From Halanaerobium praevalens DSM 2228 (GTDB taxonomy: Bacteria; Bacillota; Halanaerobiia; Halanaerobiales; Halanaerobiaceae), in NCBI RefSeq assembly GCF_000165465.1, contig NC_017455.1, positions 2,170,001-2,234,000 on the forward strand: a stretch of DNA of 64,000 nt. Direction: 5' to 3'. The first letter of the stretch is position 1, and each line of letters opens with the position of its first letter. The notes under the pieces were generated by a model that was not told the DNA's origin, searched no databases, and saw only the letters and a list, made by a program, of their open reading frames with translations. A program made the position numbers and the translations under genes. Shown here in pieces: positions 45,701 to 63,210 of this stretch.

Positions 45701-46228
45701 TTATATGTCAATTAGTTTCATCCTTTGATTTGGCTTTTGATGCCAAACTAATAATAAATTTTCTTCATTAATACTTTCAACTTTATTTTTTATATTTTCT
45801 TTAAAATAATTCCTGTCTTTATTTCCGTAAATCAACATGATTCCCTTATAATATTGACATCTATCAATGAACTTTTTTATTTTCTCTATATCACTTTTCA
45901 AATTATTAGCTCTCACATCTATCGGCTTAACTTCAATAACAGCCAAATTATTCTCCATATCTCCTCGTTTATGAATTACAAAATCAGGCTTTACTCTTCC
46001 AAGAGACTCTTCGATAATTGAATGACCACTTTTATCTAACTCTCCATCTAAATTATAATAAAAATCAACTATTTTATTCTTCAATTGGTGATAAAGCTCA
46101 TAACAATATACTCTTTCTCTTTGAATTAACTCTCTTGAACCGGCTTCTTTTAAATTAAAATAATCCTCACTTATTTCCTCTCCTGCACTTTTTAAAGATT
46201 CAATAAAAGAATTGAACATTCTTTCCAT
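45701..46228 (-). CDS. Putative PD-(D/E)XK nuclease-like protein
   Basis: 175 residues, no signal or membrane segment. Asp82 in KPDFVIH and Glu99-x-Lys101 in LAVIEVKP match the spacing of a PD-(D/E)XK active site; RERVYCYELYHQLK ahead of it is also seen in restriction-like nucleases. The family is not recognised beyond that. It lies 37 bp downstream of the HEPN gene on the same strand and is probably co-transcribed. A defence role is inferred from the context. Confidence 0.55.
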   Translation of the reverse strand: MERMFNSFIESLKSAGEEISEDYFNLKEAGSRELIQRERVYCYELYHQLKNKIVDFYYNLDGELDKSGHSIIEESLGRVKPDFVIHKRGDMENNLAVIEVKPIDVRANNLKSDIEKIKKFIDRCQYYKGIMLIYGNKDRNYFKENIKNKVESINEENLLLVWHQKPNQRMKLIDI

Positions 46229-47587: not shown

Positions 47588-48367
47588 TTAGTTTTCTAAG
47601 GCGGAAAATCTATTGTTGTTTTCTCTAGAGCTTCTCTTGATTAAAGAATCTATAATTTTTTCTTTAGCGTTATTTCTCTTTTCCTCTTTTAAACTATTAC
47701 ACAATTTTATAGAAAGCATAATATCTTGCATGTCTACCAATTCGCTATAAAAATAGTTTAATTGCTTTTTATTTTCTTTGTACATATAAAAATATGCTCC
47801 ACCAATAAATTCCAGAATTATTCCAGCTACTGATGTTAATATAGAAATACTTAAGTTTGAATTAATATCAAAATAAAATATCCATATGCCAAATATAATT
47901 GTAAACAGACCTAAGATTATTGCAAGAATACTTAAATTATAACTCTTTTTAGCCTGGTTTTTGCTAATAGTATAATATTCAGTAATTTGATTTAAATTTA
48001 GTCTGATTATATTAAAAATATCTTTTTGTTCGCTTTCTTCAGTTTTTAAGTCATTTTCTAATTTTTCTCTTTCTTCTCTTAGATTTTGCAAATCCAATTT
48101 TGTTGTTTTCATATTATCAACTTCAATTTCTGTATAAGAAAGTATAATTACAAATAATGAAATTATAGTTGAAACTGCAAGAATTGCACTGAATTCTTTA
48201 AGGTTTTGATATCCCTGTTGAAAATATTTGAAATAGAATAATAAAATTAATGATAAAAATAATAAAATGATAGATATAATTAAACTATACTTTCTCATTT
48301 TAGTATTGTTTCTAAATTTCTCTACCAGCTGCAATAATATCTCTTTTATTCTATCAATCAAACTCAA
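47588..48367 (-). CDS. TRADD-N-associated membrane-domain protein
   Basis: 259 residues with about four membrane helices (near 28-46, 60-78, 145-165 and 172-195) and a cytoplasmic coiled coil (LREEREKLENDLKTEE) between the pairs. The second half, from LNQITEYYTISKNQAKKSYN to FIGGAYFYMYKENKKQLNYF and MQDIMLSIKL, matches the TRADD-N-associated two-helix membrane domain described in predicted bacterial conflict systems. It may act as a membrane effector or sensor for the HEPN neighbour; that part is inference. Confidence 0.65.
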   Translation of the reverse strand: MSLIDRIKEILLQLVEKFRNNTKMRKYSLIISIILLFLSLILLFYFKYFQQGYQNLKEFSAILAVSTIISLFVIILSYTEIEVDNMKTTKLDLQNLREEREKLENDLKTEESEQKDIFNIIRLNLNQITEYYTISKNQAKKSYNLSILAIILGLFTIIFGIWIFYFDINSNLSISILTSVAGIILEFIGGAYFYMYKENKKQLNYFYSELVDMQDIMLSIKLCNSLKEEKRNNAKEKIIDSLIKRSSRENNNRFSALEN

Positions 48368-48430
48368 TAAATTTCACCTCTACTATATCCTTAAAGTTTA
48401 TAAACTTTATTTTTTGCCTAATAACCAATA

Positions 48431-48976
48431 TTATAATGAAAAGTTTTTCATCGAATTGTCCATGACATCCTGATTAATACCAATATAATCTAAAGTGATA
48501 CTGGGAGCAGAATGATTGAACAGCTCCTGTAACAGGGCCACATCTTTGTACTGCTTATAATGATGATAACCGAATGTTTTACGGGTTGAGTGACAGCCTA
48601 TATTATCTAACCCTACAGTTTCTCCTGCTTTGTTTAACACCCTATATGCCTGGCTACGGGATAATGGCTGATTGGTTCCATTCCTACTCTGAAATAAATA
48701 TTCATGGTCGTACATGTTTTTAATATATCTATCCAGGGCTTCTCGTAAAACAGAGTTAATAAAAAACTTCTTAGTCTTGCCGGTCTTCTGCTCTTTTAAA
48801 ATGATATGAATTTTATTTCTTACATCTTGAACTTTTAGCTTTAAGATATCACCAATTCTTAATCCTGTGTTTATTCCTAAAACAAAAAGCAAATAATTGC
48901 GGTAGTTATCTTTTAAAAGCTCAGTCTTAATTTCTTCAATTAAACTTTTGTCTCTGATTGGATCGACTTTATTCAT
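48431..48976 (-). CDS. Small tyrosine recombinase/integrase
   Basis: 181 residues, catalytic domain only, lacking the N-terminal arm and core-binding domain of larger integrases. Arg in NTGLRIGD, Lys in EQKTGKTK, His-x-x-Arg in GCHSTRKTFGYHHY, His in FNHSAPSIT and Tyr in LDYIG are all in place. AGGAGAT before ATG 48976 decides the start. A truncated near-copy lies at 51549-51903 in the same orientation. Confidence 0.88.
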   Translation of the reverse strand: MNKVDPIRDKSLIEEIKTELLKDNYRNYLLFVLGINTGLRIGDILKLKVQDVRNKIHIILKEQKTGKTKKFFINSVLREALDRYIKNMYDHEYLFQSRNGTNQPLSRSQAYRVLNKAGETVGLDNIGCHSTRKTFGYHHYKQYKDVALLQELFNHSAPSITLDYIGINQDVMDNSMKNFSL

Positions 48977-49367
48977 TAAAACCATCTCCTATCATAAATA
49001 TAATTTAGATCCATTATACACTATTAAATAGGAAAAGTATATATGATATAGTTCATTGAAAACTAATTGATTGCTGCAAAATCATCATTAACCCTGTGAT
49101 GACAAAGAGCAAGCAACTTATAGTCAATGCGACTTAACATAACCTATGTTGTATTGATGTATTTTTATTGAAACTTAATTTTTCCTTAAACTGTTTCCTT
49201 TTTTACTATCACTTTTACATTCATATTTTTAAAATTAAATTTGGTTTTACCAACTTACAGATATGTATCCCTAATATTTAATAGCTTCACATTTTATTTT
49301 TAAAATATGAATAAAATATCATACTGTACCTTTGGAAACAGCACAGTATGATTAAATAATAGTAAAA
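48977..49367. other. Gene-free stretch with a terminator-like hairpin
   Basis: About 390 AT-rich bases. ATCATACTGT and ACAGTATGAT at 49319-49352 form a 10-bp hairpin just beyond the end of the nurA-like pseudogene. Nothing else is recognised. Confidence 0.6.
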
Positions 49368-51026: not shown

Positions 51027-51311
51027 GTGAATAATTCTGTTGGAAGTAATTATAGAAAAATATATTTTGATGCTCATCCACAAAGATATCATAACTGTAA
51101 AATATGTGGAACTAGATTAGATAAAGAAATTTCTGGAGAAGTAACTGTTGACCATATTGTCCCTCAAAACTTAAATGGTACAAACGCCCTTTCTAATCTA
51201 CAAGTTTTATGTCGTAGTTGTAATTCTAAAAAAAGCGATAAAATTAATGCATTAACTATGAAATATTCAGGAAATGCTCTAATAAGAGAAATTAAAAGAA
51301 AGTTTAGATAA
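51027..51311 (+). CDS. HNH endonuclease
   Basis: 94 residues from the GTG. CKICGTRLD and CRSCNSKK form the zinc cage, TVDHIVPQN the HNH His pair and LSNLQVLC the Asn. The GTG has no good ribosome site, whereas AAAGGAG at 50990-50996 points to an in-frame start eight codons upstream (ATT TTT GAT TTT CTA), possibly an unusual ATT start. It is a plus-strand gene in an otherwise minus-strand region and overlaps a 51-codon membrane peptide. Confidence 0.8.
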   Translation: MNNSVGSNYRKIYFDAHPQRYHNCKICGTRLDKEISGEVTVDHIVPQNLNGTNALSNLQVLCRSCNSKKSDKINALTMKYSGNALIREIKRKFR

Positions 51312-51548: not shown

Positions 51549-51903
51549 TATTATAACGAAAAGTTCTTCATCGAATTATCCATTACATCTTGATTGATCC
51601 CGATATGATCTAAAATGATACTGGGAACAGAATGATTGAACAGCTCCTGCAGCAGAGACACATCTTTATATTGCTAATAATGATGATAACCGAATGTTTT
51701 ACGGGTAGAGTGACAGCCTATATTATCTAAGCCTACAATTTCTTCTGCTTTATTTAACACCCTATATTCCTGGCTGCGAGATAATGGCTGATTGGTTCCA
51801 TTTCTACTCTGAAATAAATATTCATGATCGGACATGCTTTTAATATATCTATCCAAAGCTTCTCGTAAAACAGAATTGATAAAGAATTTCTTAGTTTTCC
51901 CTG
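51549..51903 (-). pseudogene. Truncated second copy of the tyrosine recombinase
   Basis: Closely similar to 48431-48780 (same GCHSTRKTFGYHHY, SRNGTNQPLSRSQ and RYIK segments) but with a stop after HHY and with the N-terminal part, including the first catalytic Arg, missing. The similarity ends at KKFFIN...GKTK, 18 bp before the first CRISPR repeat, so the gene was cut at or beside the array. Confidence 0.85.
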
Positions 51904-51920
51904 TGGATCGGGTATATCCT

Positions 51921-52245
51921 GTTTCAATCCTTGTTCTAATGGACTTAGTATTTAAACCTTGCGTAGCTTTCTGCGGTTTATCATTCTCGCTTTGTTTCAA
52001 TCCTTGTTCTAATGGACTTAGTATTTAAACACATTAAGATTTTTAGGCAAAATATTATGGTTAAGTTTCAATCCTTGTTCTAATGGACTTGGTATTTAAA
52101 CAAGTATAGTTGAGCAAACTTTTAACACTTATATTAGGTTTCAATCCTTGTTCTAATGGACTTAGTATTTAAATACAACGAACCCTTGCAGGAAGGAGTT
52201 ATTACTTAGTTTCAATCCTTGTTCTAATGGACTTAGTATTTAAAC
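51921..52245 (-). CRISPR. Orphan CRISPR array: five 37-bp repeats, four spacers
   Basis: Repeats at 51921, 51994, 52065, 52138 and 52209, each 37 bp, beginning GTTTCAATCCTTGTTC and ending GTATTTAAAC on the plus strand. Read on the minus strand they end ATTGAAAC, the usual crRNA 5' handle of type I-B/III repeats, so transcription is probably leftward. Repeat 3 has one A-to-G change and repeat 4 a changed last base. Spacers are 36, 34, 36 and 34 bp. No cas gene is in the window. Confidence 0.93.
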
Positions 52246-52933
52246 CCGTCAAGCTTCAAATTCTTTATTATAAAAGCATTCATAGCAATTTTCTTAGAAA
52301 AGAAGATTACTATTTTTAACTCAAAAAATTTATTAAAAAGCCAAATTTAAAGCAAATGCGCGACTTTGACCATCCTGACCAAACTATTATATCAATAATT
52401 TTCAAGGTTCATGATTTTTGAATAAAATAATTTTGCTTCAGAATTTAAAAATATAAGTTATTTTTTATATTTGATTATAGCATAAACACTCTTTTCTAAC
52501 AAATAATATTTAAAAAATATTTGCATCGCTTTTGGTAGATGATTTTTCTTCACAAAGAAATATTATGTTTTTTTATGTAGAACTTTTTTAAGCTTAAAAT
52601 ATTAGATTATTTATCATTTAATCTAATATACCATTTAGCATTTTCTCAGACTTTACCTAATTTTGTTCTCTTAAAAAAATAATATAATGCTTAAACAAAG
52701 TTGGAATTTTGATCTGTAATATTTCTTCTAAACATTATTATATGATTCTTTTAACTCTTTTCCTAGCCTCTTTAAATATAATTCCAGAACTTTCTCGTTA
52801 TATATTTAAAATTAATTTTGTTTTGTAATACTCTTAAATTCAACTTTTATTTTAAACTAACATTTTTCGGCCTTTATTTTATAAAATTATAAGATGCAGG
52901 AAAAAAACTAAGTCCTGCACCTTATTTACTTTG
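52246..52933 (-). other. AT-rich gene-free stretch, candidate CRISPR leader
   Basis: About 690 bp without a recognisable gene. The part next to the array (52246-52500) is the expected leader position if the array is read leftward. Near 52890-52922 TGCAGGA and TCCTGCA form a stem just downstream of the chemotaxis receptor gene, a weak terminator candidate. Confidence 0.5.
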
Positions 52934-57886: not shown

Positions 57887-58789
57887 TTATTCACTTTTTT
57901 TGCTATCAATTTTCTTAATTGATGAATTTATTAAGTCTATTTTAGAATAATCTGGAAATAAATTTTTGGCCTCCTCTGGTGCAGTTAAAGAATGATGAAT
58001 TTCAGTACCTTCAAACATTAGTTTTCCTAAGGTTTTGATAGAGTATTTAATTTTACCAAAATATTCGTTATCATAATCCATTTTTTCTTTTTCTAATAAG
58101 TTTTTTGCTTCTATTTCAACTAAGCTATTAATTTCTTTTTCTAACCCAGAACTTATTGATTTTAAAGCATCATTTTTAATATCTAAAGCTTGAACTTGCC
58201 TTTCCAAAATTTCGGCTTCAAGATGTTTTTTTCTTATTACAGCAGCTGCCCAACATAAACCTGCAACAAAATTTAAGGCAGCAGCACTACCCACAATTAC
58301 TTCTACCCATTGTGAACCAGTATCAAAGTTTTGAAGCTTTATTTTACCATTAATCTTTTCATTAACCAGTGATTGATTTAATATATTATCTATATTTTTA
58401 AAGAAATCTGATATCCTAGATAAATCTTTATAATCAGGCAATTTTATGCTGATAGAGTTTTTATTTTGTTTTGGTATTGCTTCATCAATTAAATCAAGAA
58501 CAGTTCGACATTTTTGATTAATCATCTTGATAATGTTACTAAATTCTTTTTTAGTTCTATGATTAATTCTCACTTTGTCTGAATTTGACTTATTATAATA
58601 TATATTCTCTAATTTTATAAGTTTTTTATATTCTTTTTGAATAAACTTAAATTCACTTAAATTTTCAATAGCATCAATTGCTTTTTGATAATCAGAAATT
58701 TCTGCTATAGTTTGATTAATTTTTTTGGATTGATAATTTATTTGATTTATATTTTCATCAATTATTTTTCTAATCTGTCTTAATCTCAT
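57887..58789 (-). CDS. Uncharacterised coiled-coil membrane protein after hsdR
   Basis: 300 residues, not recognised. The N-terminal 160 residues are helical and probably coiled coil (INQINYQSKKINQTIAEISD). One clear membrane helix spans about 163-187 (VEVIVGSAAALNFVAGLCWA), then a second coiled coil (AEILERQVQALDIKNDALKS) and a short tail. It begins 31 bp after the hsdR stop on the same strand, so it is probably the fourth gene of the restriction operon. Not a known restriction subunit. Confidence 0.6.
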   Translation of the reverse strand: MRLRQIRKIIDENINQINYQSKKINQTIAEISDYQKAIDAIENLSEFKFIQKEYKKLIKLENIYYNKSNSDKVRINHRTKKEFSNIIKMINQKCRTVLDLIDEAIPKQNKNSISIKLPDYKDLSRISDFFKNIDNILNQSLVNEKINGKIKLQNFDTGSQWVEVIVGSAAALNFVAGLCWAAAVIRKKHLEAEILERQVQALDIKNDALKSISSGLEKEINSLVEIEAKNLLEKEKMDYDNEYFGKIKYSIKTLGKLMFEGTEIHHSLTAPEEAKNLFPDYSKIDLINSSIKKIDSKKSE

Positions 58790-58820
58790 TTAATCACCTT
58801 TCTCGTATTTTAAATATTTT

Positions 58821-61805
58821 TCACTCGGCCCTCAAACTCTGATACAGATCAATCATAATTAAATCCATCAGCTTTTCTTTGAAATCTTTGTCATTAAGCA
58901 CTTTACCATAGAACTCAGTATTTTCATTATAAGATTCAACAACTGTGTCTTCAAATTTCTTTTGTACTGGTATCTTAAAGTCCTCAAAACTATTTGCTTG
59001 AGCCCATTTCTTCAAATTATTATTCTTCTCCAACTTATTTTTCATCTGATCAATAGCAACTTTAGCTGAATCTGAAAAATTGGTCTGGAATTTTTCGTTT
59101 AAACGCTCAATAATTACACTCAAATGCTCTTTTTCTTCCTCTTGATAGCTGCCACTACCCAGAGCTGGCCCAGTGAGTTCTTTTTCCCCAATTAAGCCGA
59201 TACTCTGCTGACCTTTATTCTCCAGCTGATAATATTCCAAGACAACTTTATCCGAAATATCTACATTGTTTGGAGTTTCAACATCAATTCTTTTCAGCAG
59301 AAATTTTAAATAAATATTCAGTTTATGCAGCTCAATATCTTTAATTGGATGGACCTGCAGCACTAAATTATAGAGGTTGATAAAACGCTTCATTTGAGAT
59401 CTAAATTCTAATTTATCCTCTTTAGATAAATTCTCAATTCTGGCTGTACTATGTGAGAGAGCATTATCTCCAGCTGCTATTATTTCTTCTGTAGAATCAT
59501 TCTCATAATAACAGTGAGCAAAAGCATCAATATCAGCTTTATCAATCAACATGGAATCCATTATCTCATCATAAAGAGTATACATCTGATTAGGATCTAT
59601 ATTATCTGAATCTAGCTTTGTTAGGTCATAATATGGTTCAAAAGCATTTTTAATATCATCAGCTTCATTAACAAAATCAAGAACAAAGGTATCTTCTTTA
59701 ATCCCTTTGTAGGTTCTGTTTAAACGAGATAAAGTCTGGACAGCATTAACTCCCTGCAGCCTCTTATCAACGAACATTGTGTGCAGTTTTGGCTGGTCAA
59801 AACCAGTCTGATATTTATTGGCAACTAAAAGGATCTGGTATTCATCTTTATCAAATTCTTTGGCTGTTTCTGATTCAGGGATACCGTTATTCAGCTTAGG
59901 TTCAGTGTATTCAAAGCCATCATCTTTAACTGTGCCTGAAAAAGCGACTAGACTTTTTAAATTCTTGTAGCCTTTGTCTCTAATGTATTTATCAAAAGCA
60001 TTTTTATATCTCACTGCATGTAGGCGAGAAGAGGTAACTAACATTGCTTTAGCTTCTCCCCCAATTTTATGCATTGTCTTATCCCGGAAATGCTCAATCA
60101 TAATTTCTGTTTTCTGTGATATATTATGAGGGTGCAGGCTCACAAATCTGGCAATCTCCTTTGAAGTTCTGGATTTTTCGAATTCAGGATCAGCTTCAAT
60201 TTTTTTATTAACCTGATAATATGTTTTATATGTCATATAATTTTCTAAAACATCTAAAATAAAACCTTCTTCAATAGCCTGCCGCATTGAATAAAGGTGA
60301 AAAGCCTCTTTTTTACCTGCCTGATTAGTAGAACCAAAAAGCTCTAAAGTGGCTGGTTTAGGAGTAGCGGTAAAGCCAAAGAAGCTCAAGGAATCAAGAC
60401 TCTGGACCCGCTTTAACTCTTTATTAATCTTATCCTCAACATCATCAGAATTCATTTCTGCCTGTCTATCTAATTCAGCTGCTTCTTCTAGAGATAGTGA
60501 TTCTTTTAAAGCTAAAATATTTTTGCCACTAGTAGAAGAATGGGCCTCATCAATTATAATGGCAAAGTTTTTAACTTTAGTATCTGAAACCTTATCTAAG
60601 ATAAAGGGAAACTTCTGGATTGTACTGATAATAATCTTGGTGCCAGCATTTAATTCAGCAGCTAATTGATGTGAATCTTTTTTAATCGGAGCGACTACTC
60701 CCAGTTTATGATCTATCTGATAAATCGTTTCCTGCAGCTGCTGGTCTAGGGAAACTCTATCTGTCACAACTATGACACTGCTAAAAATGGGGTTATTTTC
60801 TCTATCATGTAAACTGGATAATCGATGGGCCAGCCAGGTGATGGAATAGGTTTTACCTGAGCCTGCACTATGTTGAATTAAATATTTAGAGCCCGCTTTT
60901 TTTTCTTTGACATCCCCCAAAATTTTAGAGACTACATCTAATTGGTGATAGCGAGGAAAAATTATTTTCTCATCTTGTTTAAGATTACCCTGTTGATCAA
61001 TATCTTCTTCTTGATCAATGAAAACAAATTTCTGCAGAATCTCTAAAAGCTGATCTTTTTTGAAAATATCCTCCCAGAGATAATGAGTTTTTATTTTGCC
61101 TGCAACTGTAGGATTCCCTGCTCTTTTGGCTTTACCCTTGCCTTGACCTTTGTTAAAAGGTAAAAAGAAGGTATCTTTTCCCTTAAGCTCAGTTGTCATA
61201 TAGACTTCAGCTTTATCAACAGCAAAATTTACTATTGAGCGCTGTTTAAATCTAAATATTTTTTCATTGGGAGACCTCTCAGTTTTATATTGTTTAATAG
61301 CATCTTTGTAGCCCTGACTTGTATCCTGATTTTTGAGCTCCATTGTGATAATCGGGAGACCATTTAGAAAAAGAACTATATCAAGTCGTTTATTATCCTG
61401 ATAATTTAGTTCATCAATTACAGAAAAAATGTTCTGTTGATATAATTTATTTAGCTTTGCATTAAAATCTGTCGGGGGCTTAAAATAGGCTAAATCTAAT
61501 TTTTTACCATAATCTTTAATTCCATGCTTAATTACATCAATCATACTTCTTCTGGCTAATTCTGCATTTAATCTTTTAACTATTTTTTGCTTATATTCAG
61601 GTCCATAAATATTTTTTAATTCCTGCATGGTTTTTTCCTGTGTTGTTTCCAGAAATTCAAATAAGATTTCTGTATCTAGAGCATGATATTTATCATAGTT
61701 TTGATTACTGCTTTCAAGATAAGCATTTTCACTAATTAGATGCTTTTTAATTAAGTTCTGAAATTCTTTCTCTGTCAATTGGGCTGGTGTGCCTGTGCTC
61801 AGCAA
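58821..61805 (-). CDS. hsdR: Type I restriction enzyme R subunit
   Basis: 994-residue motor and nuclease subunit. The N-terminal nuclease motif is in KRLDIVLFLNGLPIITMELKN (Asp and Glu-x-Lys). The helicase part has HSAGSGKTYS (motif I), IIIDEAHSST (motif II, DEAH), FFGFTATPKP (motif III) and LSRLNRTYKG (motif VI). The C-terminal region should bind the methylase. It follows hsdS by 1 bp. The nuclease and ATPase residues look intact, so the system may be active. Confidence 0.95.
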   Translation of the reverse strand: MLSTGTPAQLTEKEFQNLIKKHLISENAYLESSNQNYDKYHALDTEILFEFLETTQEKTMQELKNIYGPEYKQKIVKRLNAELARRSMIDVIKHGIKDYGKKLDLAYFKPPTDFNAKLNKLYQQNIFSVIDELNYQDNKRLDIVLFLNGLPIITMELKNQDTSQGYKDAIKQYKTERSPNEKIFRFKQRSIVNFAVDKAEVYMTTELKGKDTFFLPFNKGQGKGKAKRAGNPTVAGKIKTHYLWEDIFKKDQLLEILQKFVFIDQEEDIDQQGNLKQDEKIIFPRYHQLDVVSKILGDVKEKKAGSKYLIQHSAGSGKTYSITWLAHRLSSLHDRENNPIFSSVIVVTDRVSLDQQLQETIYQIDHKLGVVAPIKKDSHQLAAELNAGTKIIISTIQKFPFILDKVSDTKVKNFAIIIDEAHSSTSGKNILALKESLSLEEAAELDRQAEMNSDDVEDKINKELKRVQSLDSLSFFGFTATPKPATLELFGSTNQAGKKEAFHLYSMRQAIEEGFILDVLENYMTYKTYYQVNKKIEADPEFEKSRTSKEIARFVSLHPHNISQKTEIMIEHFRDKTMHKIGGEAKAMLVTSSRLHAVRYKNAFDKYIRDKGYKNLKSLVAFSGTVKDDGFEYTEPKLNNGIPESETAKEFDKDEYQILLVANKYQTGFDQPKLHTMFVDKRLQGVNAVQTLSRLNRTYKGIKEDTFVLDFVNEADDIKNAFEPYYDLTKLDSDNIDPNQMYTLYDEIMDSMLIDKADIDAFAHCYYENDSTEEIIAAGDNALSHSTARIENLSKEDKLEFRSQMKRFINLYNLVLQVHPIKDIELHKLNIYLKFLLKRIDVETPNNVDISDKVVLEYYQLENKGQQSIGLIGEKELTGPALGSGSYQEEEKEHLSVIIERLNEKFQTNFSDSAKVAIDQMKNKLEKNNNLKKWAQANSFEDFKIPVQKKFEDTVVESYNENTEFYGKVLNDKDFKEKLMDLIMIDLYQSLRAE

Positions 61806-61806
61806 T

Positions 61807-63210
61807 TTATTCTCCCCCTTTTAATTCGTAATCTCGCAAGTCTATTTTACCTGTAACAGCCTCAAAGATTAGTGATTTTTTGTATTCTTTATATTTTTGG
61901 ATTGAAGTTTTGGTTTTTTGGATTAGGTTGTCTATTAGTTCGGTTTTTTTATCAAGATAATTTATTATTTTATTTTGTGAATGTTTATCTATCTTTGGTA
62001 AATACAAATTATCCAACTGTTCTTGTGAAATCATCGGGACTGCTGTTGATGATACAATTAAATTAAAAAATTCAGAAACAGAATTAGAAATTAAATAATA
62101 ATAAAAATATTTAGCTTTTATTTCAAGATTATTAACAAGAATTAAACTAGGATTTATTGTAGCTTCACCAATGTTCTTATCAATTATTGCTACTTTTCCA
62201 ATACTACCTCTTTGGACAACAACTAAATTATTATATTCTATCATAATTTCTGGCGATTCATAATATTTATCCCAACTAATATAAGTTGGGTCACTTAAAT
62301 CTAACTGATTTCTATCATTAATATGCTTACCACCTAAAGTTAAAGCTCCTTGTCCTTTATCAACTAAATCATCTTTTGTATATCCTCTATAACCTATTCT
62401 TCCATGAATGTCTGCTATATATTTAACTTTACTAATATCATAAAAGTGAGGAACATCTCTTATCCATTCAATTCCACTATCTTTCATTTCTACTTCATCA
62501 ACTAAATCTCCATCCTCATTAAGATATTTATCTCCTAATTTACCTTTAGTTACAGCATCAGTTATAACTGATTTTTTATATTTTTCGAGTTGGTCTATAA
62601 GCTTTTCTTTTTTGTTCGTTATCTCATCTATTTCAGCAGTTTTTTGGTCGAGGAATGATGCTATTTTTTGTTGTTCCTCAATACTAGGCTTTAAAACTAG
62701 AATATCATTTATATCTTTCATTCCTAGATTTTTCTGAGTATTTGAATTAGATAATAAATCAGTTTGAATTTGAAAATATGAGCTTTTCATTGAGTATTCT
62801 AAATAAGAAGATTCTATTTTATAGTTAGGTTTTATTAACGCTAGAGGAGACCATATAGAAAATGGAAAATCCACATTAATTTTAGCAACCTTTCCAACAG
62901 AAGCAGCCTTGCCTAATAAAATATCTTCTTTCTCAGGATTGCTTTTATTTCTGTAAATCTTGTGATCTTTAACTGAAATTTGTCTGCAATTTTCAAAAAC
63001 CAACTTGCCATTTTGAATACTATCTACTGATAAAAATGGGACACCATTATCATATACATAATCAGGTGTTTCATGTGGTCCATCTGATACTGGTTCTTTC
63101 ACAAGATATTTTATTTTACTAATTATCCAATTTTTAGGTATATCAGCAATCCACTCAATTCCACTATCCTGATACTCCTCATATCTCTTATATTCTCTCA
63201 TCATAACCAC
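61807..63210 (-). CDS. hsdS: Type I restriction enzyme specificity subunit
   Basis: 467 residues with two target-recognition domains, each opened by a similar segment (YQDSGIEWIADIPKNW near residue 11 and MKDSGIEWIRDVPHFY near 240) and each closed by a conserved helix (LDQKTAEIDEITNKKEKLID near 190 and LDKKTELIDNLIQKTKTSIQ near 420). Together they read a bipartite DNA site, which cannot be predicted. The frame is intact. It overlaps the hsdM stop by one base. Confidence 0.94.
   Translation of the reverse strand: MVMMREYKRYEEYQDSGIEWIADIPKNWIISKIKYLVKEPVSDGPHETPDYVYDNGVPFLSVDSIQNGKLVFENCRQISVKDHKIYRNKSNPEKEDILLGKAASVGKVAKINVDFPFSIWSPLALIKPNYKIESSYLEYSMKSSYFQIQTDLLSNSNTQKNLGMKDINDILVLKPSIEEQQKIASFLDQKTAEIDEITNKKEKLIDQLEKYKKSVITDAVTKGKLGDKYLNEDGDLVDEVEMKDSGIEWIRDVPHFYDISKVKYIADIHGRIGYRGYTKDDLVDKGQGALTLGGKHINDRNQLDLSDPTYISWDKYYESPEIMIEYNNLVVVQRGSIGKVAIIDKNIGEATINPSLILVNNLEIKAKYFYYYLISNSVSEFFNLIVSSTAVPMISQEQLDNLYLPKIDKHSQNKIINYLDKKTELIDNLIQKTKTSIQKYKEYKKSLIFEAVTGKIDLRDYELKGGE

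Follow-up and report, generated by a model that had tools for sequence, protein, structure and literature searches.

A five-repeat CRISPR array of Halanaerobium praevalens, probably a cas-less orphan of a Halanaerobium type III / I-B family, with a conserved leader

Halanaerobium praevalens DSM 2228 carries a five-repeat CRISPR array that is, in all likelihood, an orphan, a cas-less relic of the type III / I-B CRISPR-Cas family of Halanaerobium. We analyzed this array within a stretch of 64,000 nucleotides (hereafter the window) of the single-contig genome (2,309,262 bp, completeness 99.99%). A table in the genome paper of H. praevalens GSL(T) gives 'CRISPR repeats 1' (PMC3156398), and beyond this count we found no discussion of the array in the accessible portions of the open-licence literature. 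Our analysis indicates that this array, the sole CRISPR of the H. praevalens type strain, probably does not work as an immune system, and the analysis allows the family to which the array likely belongs to be named. Orphan arrays are already documented, and the present one is real and ordinary. The accessible text of PMC5294841 and PMC12814883 describes arrays in genomes without cas genes; our array resembles these in that no cas locus was found in its genome, and differs from them in that a subset of the cas families was searched here.

The array consists of near-constant direct repeats and unique spacers of similar length (36, 34, 36 and 34 nt, all four different), with a leader at one end (Table 1). 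Over 36 nt, four of the five repeats are identical and the other has 1 mismatch; nucleotide 37 is T in the fourth repeat and C in the remaining four. The repeat was matched 0 times in 100 shuffles of the window, and all five copies, aligned along the entire 37-nt model on the minus strand, exceeded the gathering score of the Rfam family CRISPR-DR7 (RF01320), in agreement with an earlier sequence-only reading of this DNA, which had described a five-repeat CRISPR array. The minus-strand repeat ends in ATTGAAAC, as repeats of this kind usually do, so the crRNA sense runs from right to left, with the recombinase fragment at the trailer end. As read from the sequence, the orientation of the array is given by the repeat and by the leader alike: the CRISPR-DR7 strand and the position of the leader on the other side also place the trailer end next to the recombinase fragment, where it had been presumed to lie. 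While the earlier description was correct as to the array, it overlooked the leader of ~205 bp opposite the recombinase side. A promoter scan returned 9 sites versus 9.9 in shuffles, and one terminator-like site was found inside spacer 1 versus 0.4 in shuffles.

Table 1. Positions in the window of the CRISPR array, its leader and the neighboring recombinase sequences.
Feature	Position	Strand	Description
CRISPR array	51921..52245	minus (crRNA sense)	five 37-nt repeats and four spacers
Repeats	51921-51957, 51994-52030, 52065-52101, 52138-52174, 52209-52245		
Spacers	51958-51993, 52031-52064, 52102-52137, 52175-52208		
Leader, ~205 bp	52246..52455	minus	homologous to leaders of the 11 other arrays in the alignment
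Leader blocks	52364-52383, 52398-52410, 52425-52442		
Junction, 16 bp, between trailer-end repeat and recombinase fragment	51905..51920	none	
Recombinase pseudogene	51549..51904	minus	67 of 184 residues missing at the start; one TAG in frame; LDH in place of LDY
Intact tyrosine recombinase, 184 aa, Pfam Phage_integrase	48431..48985	minus	for comparison only, not part of the array

A genome-wide check for further copies of the repeat and for four cas families, of the kind proposed in the sequence-only reading, was negative on both counts. With up to 3 mismatches allowed, the 36-nt repeat occurs in its own genome only at these five places, which does not support the suggestion that the array has been displaced from a larger locus. 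Profiles for Cas1 (PF01867), the RAMPs (PF03787), Csh2 (TIGR02590) and a genus-type Cas6 (built from two relatives) each gave 0 matches in the H. praevalens genome, and these families are present in 8, 2, 8 (5 above the curated cut-off) and 6, respectively, of 12 genus genomes, our own included. The absence of cas genes reported here covers these four families and does not extend to Cas2, Cas3, Cas4, Cas9, Cas10, Cas12 and Cas13 taken singly. The Pfam Cas6 model PF10040 matched 0 of the 12 genomes, including the six with a Cas6-like gene, and is therefore uninformative. No type III-A effector was recognized in the genome by way of the RAMP family, with Cas10 itself outside the search. Within the window, 151 ORFs from ten cas-bearing stretches of relatives gave 0 matches by tblastn at E<=1e-3 (a search run without a positive control), in keeping with the earlier statement that the array has no cas genes nearby.

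We found nucleotides 1-27 of the repeat, at no more than 3 mismatches, in 7 of the 59 genomes of the class: H. praevalens and three others of the genus (H. saccharolyticum MSL 17.2, G006; H. saccharolyticum WC1, G007; H. salsuginis ATCC 51327, G009), two further out (G024 and G048), and G018, which has a single copy. The 36-nt repeat, at the same number of mismatches, is present in 0 of the 11 other genus genomes. A degenerate full-repeat pattern gave 0 matches in genome_contigs, a set that may not contain the H. praevalens genome, and the repeat and leader patterns gave 0 in viral_contigs. The nearest repeat, which differs at 1 of the 27 nt, is on contig C32 of G007, ~1.3 kb from a Cas10/Csm1 gene that is followed by Csm2, Csm3, Csm4 and Csm5 (NCBIfam assignments); a 229-aa gene beside the Csm genes has no NCBIfam match and was called Cas6-like by its position. 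That the nearest repeats are found in relatives with type III genes agrees with the type I-B/III look earlier ascribed to the repeat. Besides the repeat, this type III-A locus shares with ours a leader that is 73% identical, and it differs in that Csm1-5 and the Cas6-like gene stand beside the array there, whereas our genome has none of the families searched, and in that the repeats are >3 mismatches apart over 36 nt.

Two further relatives were informative. Contig C47 of H. salsuginis carries Cas8b/Csh1, Csh2, Cas5b, Cas3, Cas1, Cmr1, Cmr2 and Cmr4, together with a Cmr3 match below cut-off and a Cas6-like gene, and the arrays of this genome are on other contigs. The array on contig C14 of H. 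saccharolyticum MSL 17.2 (L050:1951-2787) belongs to the same repeat and leader family as ours, and its genome, a draft of 60 contigs that is 99% complete, had no match to the Cas1, RAMP, Csh2 or Cas6-like profiles, making it a second case of an array without any of these four families; it differs from ours in its 12 repeats, its draft assembly and the lack of a recombinase match on its contig. On the trailer side, the G007 arrays (L048, L049) have a hairpin, CTAGCTGC...GCAACTAG, beside an A-run, which is terminator-like in the crRNA sense.

The leader alignment comprised the window and 11 other arrays, and left out G003 (its leader at a contig start, with no array read there) and G009:C96 and G024 (only short matches). 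The closest of all the leaders aligned is that of G007:C65, at 78% identity over 205 aligned positions (82% over 239 bp); this array differs from ours in having 23 repeats and in that cas genes lie on other contigs of the same genome. The G006:C14 leader matches ours to the same extent as that of G007:C32 (73%), followed by those of four Cas6-adjacent arrays (G002, G004, G007:C41 and G010; 63-69%), three H. salsuginis arrays (59-61%) and G048 (57%). We called the G002, G004 and G007:C41 leaders I-B-linked because Csh2 scored above cut-off in these three genomes; that of G010, a genome with no Csh2 match, is presumably I-B-linked as well. Three blocks recur in a constant order; starting with the one farthest from the array they are TCTGAGGCAAAATTATTT, GAACCTTGATAAT and TTTGGTCARGATGGTCAAAG, with 1, 1 and 0 differences, respectively, in the window; TTTGGTCARGATGGTCAAAG was not found within 4 mismatches in G048 or G024. 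The block nearest the array contains TGGTCA twice, 9 bp apart, a pair that looks like a protein site. A conserved RNA fold of the leader was not found (6 pairs, 0 changed on both sides). We considered and rejected an association of the blocks with cas promoters, as among 22 sequences the blocks sit at leaders, with four weak matches elsewhere.

The leader is common to type III-linked arrays, to Cas6-adjacent arrays with other repeats, to dispersed arrays and to two genomes with none of the four cas families, and its blocks keep their order in arrays with different repeats (the window; L048-L053, L097-L101). Of our results, the sharing of one leader by arrays whose repeats differ is the one that may merit a second look. 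We entertain, as an improbable idea, that the Halanaerobium leader (three blocks, ~205 bp) is the conserved unit and could act as a common docking and promoter element, keeping orphan arrays ready for incoming cas modules.

Evidence against the relic reading comes from the state of the locus itself, as the repeats are nearly perfect, the leader is little changed, and decay is not evident. At alignment columns where the other 11 leaders agree, the window has 2 private changes, G006 has 4, other genus arrays have 0-3 and G048 has 16. As cas-bearing relatives also show 0-3 such changes, the window leader is slightly decayed, and not clearly more so than theirs. Judged by these columns, the slight decay of the leader speaks against a relic of great age. 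That two genomes with none of the four cas families have a well-kept leader provides a small case of how long arrays outlive their cas genes.

The little-decayed leader and repeats, and the retention of such arrays by two genomes, would also fit an array kept for a Cas-independent role, for instance regulation by the array transcript or the blocking of incoming cas genes by anti-cas spacers; the latter have been reported in an orphan E. coli array, as cited in the accessible text of PMC12814883. However, when each spacer was compared with six shuffles of itself, none matched the fetched loci, cas loci included, or the remaining window more closely than its shuffles did, and we regard such a role as very improbable. 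Anti-cas or self-targeting spacers were rejected as a candidate on best ungapped matches of 22-24 of 34-36 nt, never above the six shuffles. This ungapped search covered 118 sequences (the masked window and the fetched loci, many of them overlapping; 769,030 bases), leaving out 11 loci with this array and 3 with the G006 array, which was masked in two more. In the same terms, 1 of the 11 spacers of the G006 array exceeded its own shuffles, by 1 nt.

Nor did we find a credible target for the four spacers, whose comparison with phage and plasmid databases had been proposed earlier; the search covered viral contigs, phage and plasmid records, the fetched loci and the remaining window. In viral_contigs, stretches of 20-22 nt (two each from spacers 1 and 4, one each from spacers 2 and 3) had 0 exact matches. 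Among phages, blastn found no match for either spacer 1 or spacer 4, 3 records for spacer 2 and 1 record for spacer 3 (E 0.4). Among plasmids, it found no match for spacer 4, 2 records for spacer 1 (E 0.1), 1 for spacer 3 (E 0.3) and 118 for spacer 2, mainly of Acinetobacter and enterobacteria (E 0.9 among the matches listed). We took these phage and plasmid matches as chance.

If cas genes at another place in the genome served the array in trans, as the sequence-only reading had allowed, it would be functional, which would account for the near-perfect repeats and the well-kept leader; such an arrangement has parallels in G007 and G009, which hold arrays of the same family on contigs other than those on which cas genes were found. 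However, Cas1, the RAMPs, Csh2 and the genus-type Cas6, the four families searched, all gave 0 matches in a one-contig genome of 99.99% completeness, and we consider service in trans less probable again than a Cas-independent role.

We favor the cas-less relic. The ancestor would have been a leader-array unit, read leftwards on the minus strand from the right-hand leader and served by a cas locus, the genes of which would then have been lost. Without a Cas6-type nuclease, an effector or Cas1, the array is predicted to be neither processed, nor interfering, nor gaining spacers; it may still be transcribed.

At its trailer end the array adjoins a broken, 5'-truncated recombinase copy, as had been recognized earlier. 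Beginning at residue 68 of 184, the fragment matches the 3' part of the intact gene without gaps (89% identity, 317/356, to positions 48429-48784). With 67 residues missing, an in-frame TAG, and LDH in place of the LDY motif, which we take to be the site of the catalytic tyrosine, the fragment lacks the makings of a functional tyrosine recombinase. Of the 39 positions at which the fragment and the intact copy differ, 27 are third codon positions, so most of the divergence probably arose under selection. The fragment is 88.7-89.8% identical to the intact copies of its own genome, G001 and G003, and the intact G001 and G003 copies are 90.6-92.4% identical to the intact copy of H. praevalens; on these identities, the fragment represents a lineage of its own rather than a recent duplicate of the neighboring intact gene. 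Searched against plasmids, the whole locus was matched only in its recombinase part, by 4 records at 69%.

The fragment and the first repeat are separated by 16 bp, not by the 18 bp given earlier, a junction that is shorter than a spacer and perhaps the remainder of one. The trailer-end repeat is perfect here and degenerate in 3 of 6 genus arrays of the same family; a fourth genus array, G007:C65, has a further degenerate repeat copy in its flank. The short junction and the perfect trailer-end repeat suggest, without proving, a deletion of the trailer end of the array together with the first 67 codons of the recombinase. One end of this deletion would have lain in a trailer-side spacer and the other in the recombinase gene, fusing the array to the 3' part of the gene with loss of its 5' third, and we infer that this is probably what happened, no intact ancestral locus having been seen. 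Recombination at the array, as proposed in the sequence-only reading, is possible, but a link to the recombinase looks accidental, as the family was not found near the arrays of relatives. That this recombinase family moves or rearranges CRISPR arrays is the least probable reading, since, despite the adjacency here and the multiple copies of the family in the genus, the fragment is broken, tblastn of the recombinase against 21 loci, of which 17 were array- or cas-bearing stretches of relatives, matched only the three loci of its own genome, and a genus-wide search placed no copy on the array-bearing contigs G006:C14, G007:C32, G007:C65 and G009:C54, C55 and C62.

Several neighboring genes were recorded in passing. 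A gene that is chemotaxis-receptor-like by its sequence adjoins both this array and G009:C62, a parallel that we rejected: such genes are multi-copy, and the nearest copy in a relative, at G004:C12, shares no other ORF with the window over the 14 kb read. Another broken integrase-like gene, with one in-frame TAA, is present at G000:C1:1188436-1188774. In the window, a small HNH endonuclease gene (Pfam HNH; 51027-51311) adjoins the recombinase fragment, a membrane protein gene with a CyanoTRADDas_TM domain (47588-48367) adjoins the intact recombinase, and a weak PD-Lambda-3_A match (18 bits) lies at 45701-46228. Type I restriction-modification genes occupy 57887-63210, in which PADLOC identified REase_I (58821-61805) and the specificity subunit (61807-63210).
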